In this document: positions 3,391-6,015 of the stretch, in pieces
Position numbering within the stretch: position 1 is the first letter of the stretch
Layout of the letters: each line of letters starts with the position of its first letter
DNA from: Thermogutta terrifontis
GTDB lineage: Bacteria > Planctomycetota > Planctomycetia > Pirellulales > Thermoguttaceae
Direction: 5' to 3'
DNA: 64,000 bases
Assembly: GCF_002277955.1 (NCBI RefSeq)
Contig: NZ_CP018477.1
Coordinates: forward strand, 3,369,206 to 3,433,205
Position numbers and translations under genes: made by a program
The notes under the pieces: generated by a model
Database searches by the model: none
What the model was told of the DNA's origin: nothing
The model's input: only the letters and a program-made list of their open reading frames with translations

Positions 3391-3491
3391 GTTAGAGCTG
3401 TTGAAGCGGGTGAACGCCACGCGGTTCTGCGACGTCCGGCTGGGCCGAGCCACATCTCTTCAACCTGGGGATGTGTCAGGCTCGGCTGGCC

Positions 3492-3520
3492 TTGACGACG
3501 TCCAACAACGGGAATAGATT
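3492..3520 (+). promoter_or_regulatory. Predicted sigma70-type promoter of the leu leader
   Basis: TTGACG at 3492-3497 and TAGATT at 3515-3520 are separated by 17 bases, a near-consensus housekeeping promoter. Transcription would begin near 3527, about 27 bases before the leader-peptide ATG. It is inferred from sequence only. Confidence 0.55.
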
Positions 3521-3553
3521 TAATCTAGCAAGCAGATCGAAGGACTGACGAAA

Positions 3554-3610
3554 ATGAAAAATATTTGCGCGAACCTTAGCCTTGGCCTGTTGTTACTGCC
3601 TCCCACGTGA
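3554..3610 (+). CDS. Leucine-rich leader peptide (LeuL-like) of the leu attenuator
   Basis: This 18-codon ORF reads MKNICANLSLGLLLLPPT and stops at TGA. It has a ribosome site AAGGA at 3540-3544, nine bases before the ATG. Six of 18 codons are Leu, including four in a row at 3587-3598 (CTG TTG TTA CTG), of which TTA and TTG are rarely used in this GC-rich coding background. It sits just downstream of a promoter-like sequence, ahead of mutually exclusive hairpins and a terminator, and upstream of leuA on the same strand. That is the architecture of transcription attenuation: ribosomes stall at the Leu codons when charged tRNA-Leu is scarce. There is no other expected function for the peptide. 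Translation is inferred. Confidence 0.8.
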   Translation: MKNICANLSLGLLLLPPT

Positions 3611-3667
3611 GGCCGGCCTTTCGGTTCGCGCAACAGAAAGCGAAAATCCAAGAACCCAGGGCCGGCA
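3565..3667 (+). promoter_or_regulatory. Leucine attenuator: competing leader RNA hairpins
   Basis: Segment 1 (TTGCGCGAACC, 3565-3575, inside the leader-peptide frame) is perfectly complementary over 11 bases to segment 2 (GGTTCGCGCAA, 3623-3633). The region just before segment 2 (GCCGGCCTT, 3612-3620) can instead pair with 3658-3666 (AGGCCGGC-type; nine pairs with one G-U). That would occupy part of the 5' arm and loop of the terminator at 3652-3679. A ribosome stalled on the Leu codons would block segment 1 and favour the second pairing (antiterminator). Free translation would favour the terminator. The pairings were read by eye and energies were not computed. Confidence 0.7.
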
Positions 3668-3689
3668 GGTCCTGGGTTCCTTGCTTTTT
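3650..3689 (+). terminator. Attenuator terminator hairpin with U-tract
   Basis: GAACCCAGG (3652-3660) pairs perfectly with CCTGGGTTC (3671-3679) around a 10-base loop and is followed by CTTGCTTTTT. It is a normal intrinsic terminator placed 40 bases after the leader-peptide stop, as expected in an amino-acid attenuator. Confidence 0.75.
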
Positions 3690-4180
3690 ATGGACAATGA
3701 CCAAAAGGGGAATTGCATCGCAAGACACTTGCTGTATTCGCGATTGATGATTGATAAGTGCCACTCTCGGAACGCTCGGCATTTGGCGACCGGACAGATC
3801 CGTGGGACGTTCGTCGCTGTCCGGAGGCCGGGCTGGAGAGACGCGAGATAACGGCGCTCGGGTGTCGCATGAGGGGACACACCACTTCGTACCGACACTG
3901 GCTTCATCCCACGAGGGCATGGTTGGTGTTGCGCCCGCCGACCGACAGGTCGGCTTCCGGCTTAAACGAGGTCAGCTTGGTCGGACGGGCTGCTGCTCGT
4001 TCCGAAAGGCCTTGAAAAACCTTCTCCTGGTGAAATCGCAGTTTTCAAAGAAGATTTGCAGGTCAAGAATCTGCTGGCTCAAGTAAGGTCCCTGTCAGGC
4101 TCGCAAGTTTACAACCGTGTTGGTTCGCCTTGGCCGAATTGGAAAACACGACAGAACACGAGAGAAAGGGTGACACGACG
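3690..4180 (+). other. Long spacer between the attenuator and leuA, no gene recognised
   Basis: About 490 bases have no convincing coding sequence. The short frames here have no ribosome sites or recognisable content. Two small hairpins are visible: CCGGACAG/CTGTCCGG at 3790-3824 and GCCGACC/GGTCGGC at 3937-3954. Enteric leu leaders place the first gene much closer. This may be an untranslated leader with further regulatory structure, contain a second promoter, or be inserted DNA. Confidence 0.4.
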
Positions 4181-5761
4181 ATGTACGACGACGAAGTCCC
4201 AAAACCGAGCACAACTCGACGGATCATCATATTCGACACCACACTGCGGGATGGCGAGCAATCGCCGGGATGCAGCATGAACCTCCAGGAAAAACTGGAG
4301 GTCGCCCATGCACTGGCCCAACTGGGCGTGGATGTCATTGAAGCAGGTTTCCCCATTGCCTCACCCGGCGATTTTGAGGCCGTCAAAGCCATTGCCCAGG
4401 AAATTCGCGGACCGGTAATCTGTGGTTTGGCCCGATGTCGCGAAGCAGACATCGATCGGGCATGGGAAGCCCTTCGCTGGGCTGAATCTCCCAGAATTCA
4501 CGTCTTCCTGGCCACCAGCGCCATCCATCGCGAGCACAAGTTGCGCATGACCAAGGAACAGATCATTGAGCTGGCCGTCGCCGGTGTCCGCCGGGCAGCC
4601 AAATACTGTTCCAACGTCGAGTTCTCGCCCGAGGATGCCGCTCGCACGGAAATAGATTTCCTCTGTCAGGTTGTGGAAGCCGCGATCGATGCGGGAGCCA
4701 CCACCGTCAATATTCCGGATACGGTTGGGTACGCTGTGCCCTCGCAGATGTACCGATTGATAAAGACGCTCCGCGAACGGGTGCCCAATATCGATAAAGC
4801 CGTCATCAGTGTTCACTGCCATGATGACCTCGGCATGGCCGTCGCCAACAGCCTGGCCGCCATTCAAGCCGGTGCCGGGCAGGTGGAGTGCACGATTAAC
4901 GGGATCGGAGAACGGGCAGGCAACTGCGCTCTGGAAGAAATTGTGATGGCCCTCCGTGTGCGACAGGACGTGTTCCATGCGGACACCGGAGTGGTCAGCC
5001 AGCGGCTGGTCCCCACCAGTCGCCTGGTGGCCGGGATTACGGGAATGGTGGTCCAGCGAAATAAGGCCATCGTCGGGCAAAACGCGTTTGCGCACGAGGC
5101 CGGAATTCATCAGGACGGCATTCTCAAAGAGCCACGGACGTACGAGATCATGCGGCCGGAAGATGTCGGCTTCTCCCGAAGCGACCTGGTATTGGGCAAG
5201 CACAGCGGTCGCGCGGCCCTGGCAGCCCGGGCTAAAGCGCTGGGTTATGAATTAACGCCGGAGCAACTCGACCGCGTCTTCCAGGAGTTTAAAATTCTGG
5301 CCGACAAAAAGAAGGAAGTCTATGACGGCGATCTGGCGGCCCTCATCGAGCAGCAGACGCGCGTTGTGCCGGATACCTGGACCCTTGAATCGTACTCGCT
5401 CACAGTGGGCACACAGCAGGTTCCCGAGGTAACTATGACGTTGCGCCGGGCCGACAACGAAGTCCGCACGGTCACTCTCAGTGCAGGCGACGGTCCCGTG
5501 GATGCCGTCTTTCTGGCCATCGAAAAACTCACGGGGATTTCTGTGGCCTGTCGGGATTTTCATGTCCACAGCGTGACCGTCGGAAAGGACGCCCTGGGTG
5601 AGGTCCAGGTGCAGGTGGAGTATAATGGCGACATCTACCGAGGTCGCGGAGTTTCCACGGATAGCCTGGAGGCCAGCGCCAAGGCGTTTCTGAATGCGAT
5701 CAACCGGATCCTGGCGAAAAACCATCATCCCAAGGCGACGGCAGCGGAGCCTGCAGGCTGA
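4181..5761 (+). CDS. leuA: 2-isopropylmalate synthase
   Basis: Condenses acetyl-CoA with 2-oxoisovalerate, the first committed step of leucine synthesis. From the ATG at 4181 (GAAAGGG ribosome site upstream) the product is 526 residues. A TTG at 4130 in the same frame would add 17 residues with no family support. The TIM-barrel domain starts with D-T-T-L-R-D-G-E-Q (residues 19-27), the family signature with the metal Asp. Further on are S-V-H-C-H-D-D-L-G (metal His pair), N-G-I-G-E-R-A-G-N and H-E-A-G-I-H-Q-D-G. From about residue 390 a full C-terminal leucine-sensing regulatory domain follows, so feedback inhibition is expected in addition to the upstream attenuator. The regulatory domain and the Leu leader argue for IPMS rather than homocitrate or citramalate synthase. 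Confidence 0.95.
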   Translation: MYDDEVPKPSTTRRIIIFDTTLRDGEQSPGCSMNLQEKLEVAHALAQLGVDVIEAGFPIASPGDFEAVKAIAQEIRGPVICGLARCREADIDRAWEALRWAESPRIHVFLATSAIHREHKLRMTKEQIIELAVAGVRRAAKYCSNVEFSPEDAARTEIDFLCQVVEAAIDAGATTVNIPDTVGYAVPSQMYRLIKTLRERVPNIDKAVISVHCHDDLGMAVANSLAAIQAGAGQVECTINGIGERAGNCALEEIVMALRVRQDVFHADTGVVSQRLVPTSRLVAGITGMVVQRNKAIVGQNAFAHEAGIHQDGILKEPRTYEIMRPEDVGFSRSDLVLGKHSGRAALAARAKALGYELTPEQLDRVFQEFKILADKKKEVYDGDLAALIEQQTRVVPDTWTLESYSLTVGTQQVPEVTMTLRRADNEVRTVTLSAGDGPVDAVFLAIEKLTGISVACRDFHVHSVTVGKDALGEVQVQVEYNGDIYRGRGVSTDSLEASAKAFLNAINRILAKNHHPKATAAEPAG

Positions 5762-5930: not shown

Positions 5931-6015
5931 GGCCGAGTGGCGGAATGGTAGACGCACAGGACTTAAAATCCTGTGGGGAGTCATCCCCGTGCGGGTTCGA
6001 ATCCCGCCTCGGCTA
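5931..6015 (+). tRNA. tRNA-Leu (anticodon UAA)
   Basis: An 85-base class II tRNA. The acceptor arms are GGCCGAG and CTCGGCT (first pair G-U) with discriminator A. The D-arm includes GCGG and CGC. The anticodon stem CAGGA/TCCTG encloses loop CTTAAAA, giving anticodon TAA. A long variable arm GGGGA-GTCA-TCCCC and T-arm GCGGG-TTCGAAT-CCCGC follow. CCA is not encoded. It decodes UUA, one of the codons in the leader-peptide Leu run, and lies 169 bases after leuA. Its 3' end abuts an integrase remnant, so it probably served as an integration site. Confidence 0.95.

Follow-up and report, generated by a model that had tools for sequence, protein, structure and literature searches.

The window analysed here, by which is meant the whole stretch of 64,000 nucleotides, belongs to contig NZ_CP018477.1 of Thermogutta terrifontis, a heat-loving planctomycete; a first-pass annotation had already described the genome as planctomycete-like. 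It contains leuA, the gene for 2-isopropylmalate synthase, preceded by a short ORF with four consecutive Leu codons and by an intrinsic terminator with a U-tract (3652-3689), and followed on the same strand by a gene for tRNA-Leu(UAA) (Table 1). The upstream neighbour is serS, also on the same strand, whose end lies about 350 nt before the element.

Table 1. Coordinates of the leader element, its neighbouring genes and two leaders located elsewhere in the genome. Positions are those of the window unless a contig is given.
Feature	Position	Strand	Remarks
Promoter-like TTGACG-17-TAGATT	3492..3520	+	consensus match alone, 9/12
Shine-Dalgarno-like AAGGA	3540..3544	+	leader ATG 9 nt downstream
Leader peptide ORF MKNICANLSLGLLLLPPT	3554..3610	+	18 residues; stop TGA 3608-3610
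1:2 stem arm 1	3565..3575	+	within leader ORF; partner 3623-3633
Control codons CTG TTG TTA CTG	3587..3598	+	four consecutive Leu; TTA = 3593-3595
Antiterminator 5' arm (2)	3612..3627	+	partner 3652-3666; overlaps 1:2 arm 2; begins directly 3' of leader stop
1:2 stem arm 2	3623..3633	+	partner 3565-3575
Antiterminator 3' arm (3)	3652..3666	+	5' arm of terminator plus part of terminator loop
Terminator hairpin 3:4	3652..3679	+	12 bp, loop GGCA; 3652-3663 with 3668-3679; -24.6 kcal/mol
Interrupted U-tract CTTGCTTTTT	3680..3689	+	
Palindrome-containing GCCCGCCGACCGACAGGTCGGC	3933..3954		in gap before leuA
leuA, 2-isopropylmalate synthase	4181..5761	+	TIGR00973, 736.5 bits, cut-off 598.7
tRNA-Leu(UAA)	5931..6015	+	169 nt after leuA; only copy found in genome
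Ile leader ..RIIGIIIG + terminator (L363)	G000:C1:3614953-3615062		outside window; GTG or TTG start; before citramalate synthase
Aromatic leader MNRLWSYYRFYFSPPGCGAGGGP + terminator (L365)	G000:C1:2290290-2290406		outside window; before DAHP synthase

The first-pass annotation had described a promoter, a ribosome site, an 18-residue leader and four Leu codons, and these are present in that order at 3492-3610. The 11-base 1:2 pairing was recovered as well (-16.8 kcal/mol), while the competing pairing, given as 9 bases, was found at 3612-3620/3658-3666 and extends through 3623-3627/3652-3656 to an antiterminator of 14 bp (-23.9 kcal/mol). The terminator hairpin stands; its U-tract is present but interrupted, whereas it is mostly uninterrupted among the relatives inspected. 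The parts do fall within 200 bases (3492-3689) upstream of leuA, but they do not adjoin it, the leuA start lying about 490 nt beyond the terminator and about 580 nt after the Leu run. The promoter match is weak by itself because two sites of this grade were counted in 3.1 kb against 1.4 expected from shuffles; the site is identical in the near relative L004, and no such site is evident at the corresponding position of L005. When L004 is compared, the leader blocks are 90-98% identical and the gap before leuA shows 46-76% identity in eight of 11 blocks and 84-94% in three. Nothing that would give the 490-nt gap a function was found in it except the palindrome at 3933-3954. No other copy of this palindrome turned up in the window when up to three mismatches were allowed, and its surroundings show better conservation in L004 and L005 than the bulk of the gap.

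The alternative structures expected by the first-pass annotation were reproduced by RNA folding. The folding energy of 3527-3700 is lower than that of dinucleotide shuffles (z = -3.6), and the fold predicted for the leader free of ribosomes combines the 1:2 stem with the terminator. When 3606-3667 is folded, which mimics a ribosome stalled at UUA before arm 4 is made, the 14-bp antiterminator is obtained, and when 3624-3689 is folded, which mimics a ribosome at the stop codon, the terminator is obtained. With the leader masked and arm 4 present (3606-3689), the terminator wins over the antiterminator on energy. Since the terminator is the better fold once arm 4 exists, antitermination would have to be kinetic and take place during transcription, as in textbook attenuators. 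Within the window, both strands were scanned for 20 residues (ATG ORFs with at least four of one residue in six codons, followed by a terminator below -12 kcal/mol). Seven rows were returned, among which the leuA leader is the sole Leu row and has the strongest terminator.

Conservation was examined in leuA loci gathered from relatives and from the phylum. The set came to 259 different loci for which the upstream region was long enough, and in 140 of these a terminator stands behind an ORF with a Leu cluster; the 259 include 37 non-planctomycete loci, eight of which also score. Under a stricter test of the planctomycete loci, a Leu-run leader with terminator was detected in 114/186. The 19 other residues scored 0-2 apiece on the forward strand, five dinucleotide shuffles gave 0-2, and on the reverse strand Leu scored once and other residues up to five times. 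The conservation of the Leu frame, one of the checks named in the first-pass annotation, is thus borne out across many families within the order, in a different order of the same class (f21, 6/6 loci) and elsewhere in the phylum (f43, 4/4), though no leader was detected in f8 (0/19 leuA loci) and in some others. In the window's own family, Thermoguttaceae (f1), 26/35 loci carry it, with L250 and L252 doubtful, and nine have no detected leader. Counts are high in f7 (21/22), f16 (17/21) and f19 (5/5), and f3 has it in 3/8 loci. Some leaders are overlooked by the scan, such as the weaker ones of L024 and L157; at L013 and L116 no leader was found on inspection.

The arrangement of the parts is conserved too. 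In 113 of 133 leaders, a set that itself required a leader-to-T-run distance of 40-112 nt, the T-run of the terminator lies 53-80 nt after the leader stop. The stop codon is TAG in 102/133, and in relatives the leader frequently ends in RP-stop, an ending that is common because its CGGCCNTAGGGTTCG base-pairs to CGAACCCCAAGGCC of the terminator arm; a role as peptide-arrest signal was set aside in view of this pairing. In L057 (Stieleria tagensis), L247 and L248 the stop after the Leu run is apparently lost, so that the ORF runs past arm 2 and the timing of the switch would differ.

Compensatory changes in the stems, another check named in the first-pass annotation, were observed in both the terminator and the antiterminator. 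In a duplex test, native partners of the 133 leaders were compared with the average over swapped partners taken from dissimilar loci. Native 2:3 partners were better in 116/133 (p 2e-17; mean -22.7 vs -17.9), a p-value that overstates independence since the leaders share ancestry and the counts are not independent. No signal was seen with the window of the 2:3 test shifted by -40 or +30. In the other 17/133, including the close relative L005 (rank 0.80), native partners were no better than swapped ones. The 1:2 stem is less supported across relatives, native pairs being better in 92/133. In an alignment of 63 sequences, two-sided changes were found at 9/11 terminator pairs (65 cells vs 20.9 shuffled, 95.2% of cells pairing) and at 10/15 antiterminator pairs (54 cells vs 27.2 shuffled, 75.6% pairing), the latter pair count being matched or exceeded in 53/500 shuffles. 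A covariance model built from these 63 leaders, none from T. terrifontis, finds a match (E <= 0.01), whether at leuA or at another site, in 121 of 146 genomes from the order, and its best match in the T. terrifontis genome is the window leader (39.3 bits, E 1.4e-8). Anatomy, mutually exclusive pairings, and conservation and covariation in relatives are shown directly by the sequences.

The same model led outside the window, to leaders that the first-pass annotation did not cover. Its second match in T. terrifontis, at 33.8 bits, is found directly ahead of the gene for citramalate synthase (TIGR00977), where an Ile-rich leader is followed by a terminator. Among 20 citramalate synthase upstreams of relatives, a selected set of which several were already known to hold a model match, at least four Ile in six codons plus a terminator were found in 7/20, against two for Val, one each for Pro and Arg and none for other residues; at a bar of at least three Ile, used without control, the count was 15/20. 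A 19.1-bit match in T. terrifontis corresponds to no leader of this kind, and a weak 18.3-bit match (E 0.027) precedes DAHP synthase. There, 30 loci were obtained from 42 matching genomes and L395 was dropped as too short; in the remaining 29, which include T. terrifontis and one near-identical genome, at least four Phe/Tyr/Trp in seven codons plus a terminator were found in 24/29 (own locus included) and in 0/29 on the reverse strand. When five are required, the aromatic group gives 22/29 and the Ala/Val/Gly group also gives 19. Ala/Val/Gly clusters always share the ORF with an aromatic cluster, and the GAGGG-type tails of aromatic leaders would account for their score. A similar scan of ilvB and trpE of T. 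terrifontis gave no such leader. As judged from sequence, the T. terrifontis genome holds at least three predicted amino-acid leaders of the same type, the aromatic one weakly so. The match between the residue of a leader and the product of its pathway strongly supports codon reading.

The window element is very probably a classical ribosome-mediated transcription attenuator controlling leuA. From its layout we infer transcription start, translation, stalling, termination and response to leucine. RNA polymerase would start near 3527 and a ribosome would translate the 18-residue leader. When charged Leu-tRNA is scarce, the ribosome would stall in CTG TTG TTA CTG and mask arm 1, so that arm 2 would pair with arm 3, the terminator would not form and leuA would be transcribed. 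When leucine is plentiful, the ribosome would reach the stop codon with its footprint on arm 2, arm 3 would pair with arm 4 and transcription would end near 3689. If the leader is not translated, the predicted default is the 1:2 stem plus the terminator. The unexplained 490-nt gap, the interrupted U-tract and the weak promoter match are points against this model.

Some of these points also bear on the alternative that survives best, namely that the Leu-rich leader acts otherwise than by a 2:3/3:4 switch, through an arrest peptide, Rho or translational control. The 490 nt that separate leuA from the leader would suit it, and leader mutations at leuA and ilvB of Streptomyces coelicolor did not fit classical attenuation, according to the accessible text of PMC1262725. 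Nevertheless, the spacing of 53-80 nt between leader stop and T-run in 113/133 leaders, the covariation of both terminator and antiterminator, the accounting for the RP-stop ending by its pairing and the change of leader residue with pathway product make this alternative improbable. It is even less credible that an ordinary serS terminator, or the gene of a small hydrophobic protein, lies beside a chance ORF. The end of serS, some 350 nt farther upstream in the same orientation, and the LLLL run, which could belong to a membrane peptide, are compatible with it, but it is already contradicted by the comparative data, that is by the excess of Leu over every other residue at leuA, by the succession of Leu, Ile and aromatic residues at leuA, citramalate synthase and DAHP synthase, and by a leader far more alike between T. 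terrifontis and L004 than most of the gap that follows. A T-box or riboswitch in place of a translated leader is very improbable: a terminator does stand ahead of a biosynthetic gene, but the conserved feature is an in-frame codon run and Rfam at gathering score finds only tRNA in the whole window, for which reason a known leader, T-box or riboswitch family was rejected. With E up to 5, an Rfam search of 3400-4250 returned one row, SNORD74, far below its gathering score.

Behind leuA, and likewise beyond the first-pass annotation, lies the gene for tRNA-Leu(UAA), the tRNA that reads UUA, one of the control codons of the leader. The T. terrifontis genome gave 46 tRNA matches with a single Leu gene each for UAA, CAA, UAG, CAG and GAG, the last locus of the tRNA list being 73 nt and thus too short for a Leu tRNA. 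With one tRNA-Leu(UAA) gene in the genome, UUA reading should depend on it. The same gene was found on the same strand within 1 kb after leuA in 28/259 loci. At some of these the distance is 6-50 nt, and the leuA frame of L016 extends into the tRNA gene. With a cut-off of 600 nt, picked like that of 160 nt below with the distances in view, UUA is present in 22/22 leaders with a linked tRNA against 28/111 others, of which the 'unlinked' were often read for just about 600 nt downstream. In the leaders linked at this distance, UUA makes up 0.206 of Leu codons vs 0.025 in their leuA genes. In the other leaders it is CUA that is enriched (0.207 vs 0.013 in leuA), UUA being at 0.041 vs 0.022.

Reading was extended downstream at 40 loci without close linkage, picked by UUA state without knowledge of the tRNA position (L234 was readable for 794 nt downstream only). 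The tRNA gene was found at 9/19 UUA-containing and 0/21 UUA-free loci. The combined counts, with and without UUA, are 34/2 for linked and 14/33 for unlinked loci, and they become 34/2 and 13/29 when five unlinked loci read for less than 1.2 kb are dropped. The association persists when families are treated separately (CMH p 6e-6). A Pagel-type test, run along a LeuA tree with 132 leaders and with some rates at their bounds, also recovered it, for close linkage (LR 29.2, p 7e-6) as well as for any linkage (LR 31.9, p 2e-6). At least two UUA codons occur in 7/11 leaders with the tRNA within 160 nt, in 0/25 with it farther away and in 3/97 with no known linkage. Without any cut-off, UUA count and tRNA distance are anticorrelated in the 36 linked loci (Spearman -0.62), the distances of far-linked loci being counted from near the leuA end rather than from the exact stop. 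When the tRNA gene is elsewhere, leaders tend to be without UUA and to use other Leu codons. For instance, in G021 and G005, relatives in f1 whose leaders have no UUA, tRNA-Leu(UAA) is on another contig. At G005:C493:11099-11184 (L444), a tRNA-Leu(UAA) gene with no known leuA linkage is followed at about 0.4 kb by a model match, which itself precedes a LeuA-like (citramalate synthase-like) gene.

It is possible, if short of probable, that in Thermoguttaceae and some relatives the attenuator governs both leuA and tRNA-Leu(UAA), which would make the tRNA gene subject to feedback through the reading of its own codon. If charged tRNA-Leu(UAA) ran short, for want of leucine or of the tRNA itself, the leader ribosome would stall at UUA, transcription would pass the terminator, and LeuA and tRNA-Leu(UAA) would both rise. 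In the window, one scan called no plus-strand terminator between leuA and the tRNA gene, and a second scan gave a weak hairpin at +126 (-11.2 kcal/mol). Several observations speak against such a loop: L118 and L120 are linked yet have no UUA, L013 has the tRNA at 30 nt yet no leader was found there, L011 is unlinked with UUA and stands beside the linked L117 on the tree, and fourteen unlinked leaders retain UUA. Moreover, of 18 inspected gaps between leuA and the tRNA, all of about 650 nt or longer, 13 contain a gene of one family on the opposite strand (L175, L176, L182, L195, L209, L212, L218, L232, L241, L049, L128, L118 and L120). Co-transcription is therefore doubtful at these loci, and simple co-transcription of leuA and the tRNA everywhere is unsupported; UUA is kept in 11 of the 13 leaders despite the intervening gene. 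The copy at L128, the one tested, is DUF420 in Pfam.

The first-pass annotation knew of no described case in Planctomycetota, and a literature search, covering mostly sources outside subscription journals and these in part, likewise found no report of ribosome-mediated attenuation or leader peptides in this phylum. No case of a leuA-tRNA, tRNA-attenuator or citramalate synthase leader link was found in the same sources. In its accessible text, PMC4833913 deals with the short leader genes of Planctomycetes by way of a distance distribution and cites a comparative survey (Mol Biol 2010, 44:128). If the tRNA link is functional, it would offer a natural system in which the sensor's own tRNA is an output and would bear directly on the selective-charging theory of attenuator codon choice, as it appears in the part of PMC1183508 that is accessible. 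The element would be a classical and conserved leucine attenuator, of a type long familiar from E. coli and apparently new to this phylum, and attenuation by codon reading would extend, in Leu, Ile and aromatic forms, to Planctomycetota. It would also imply that coupled transcription-translation serves regulation there. The cell organisation of Planctomycetota has long been debated.

T-boxes sense tRNA charging by binding the tRNA directly and act on a terminator. The window element would share with them the sensing of tRNA charging and the terminator as target, but here a ribosome would read the codons of a leader ORF and no T-box core is detected by Rfam. The leuL-leuA region of E. coli is a closer counterpart, with a leader containing a Leu codon run, alternative hairpins, an intrinsic terminator and leuA downstream. 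Like enteric leucine attenuators, the planctomycete element has a Leu-run leader, predicted to be translated, 2:3 and 3:4 hairpins and an intrinsic terminator ahead of leuA, and rare Leu codons are favoured in planctomycete leaders. Unlike them, it is matched by no Rfam model, including that of the leucine operon leader, and in many planctomycete relatives arm 2 takes in the last codons and the stop of the leader (..CGG CCN TAG GG..). The enriched rare codon also differs, being UUA where the tRNA is linked and CUA at the other loci, and tRNA-Leu(UAA) follows leuA in T. terrifontis. For the enteric attenuators, the accessible text of PMC1183508 remarks on the rare Leu codons; it also explains why the sensitivity of the sensor is set by how abundant the tRNA for the control codon is. 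Finally, the actinobacterial LEU element, as presented in the available part of PMC1262725, is a pseudoknot in which the Leu codons and the Shine-Dalgarno box of leuA pair to form the base stem. The window element resembles it in placing a Leu-run leader upstream of leuA; unlike it, the window element has an intervening terminator and a distant leuA ribosome site, the Leu run lying about 580 nt before the leuA start.
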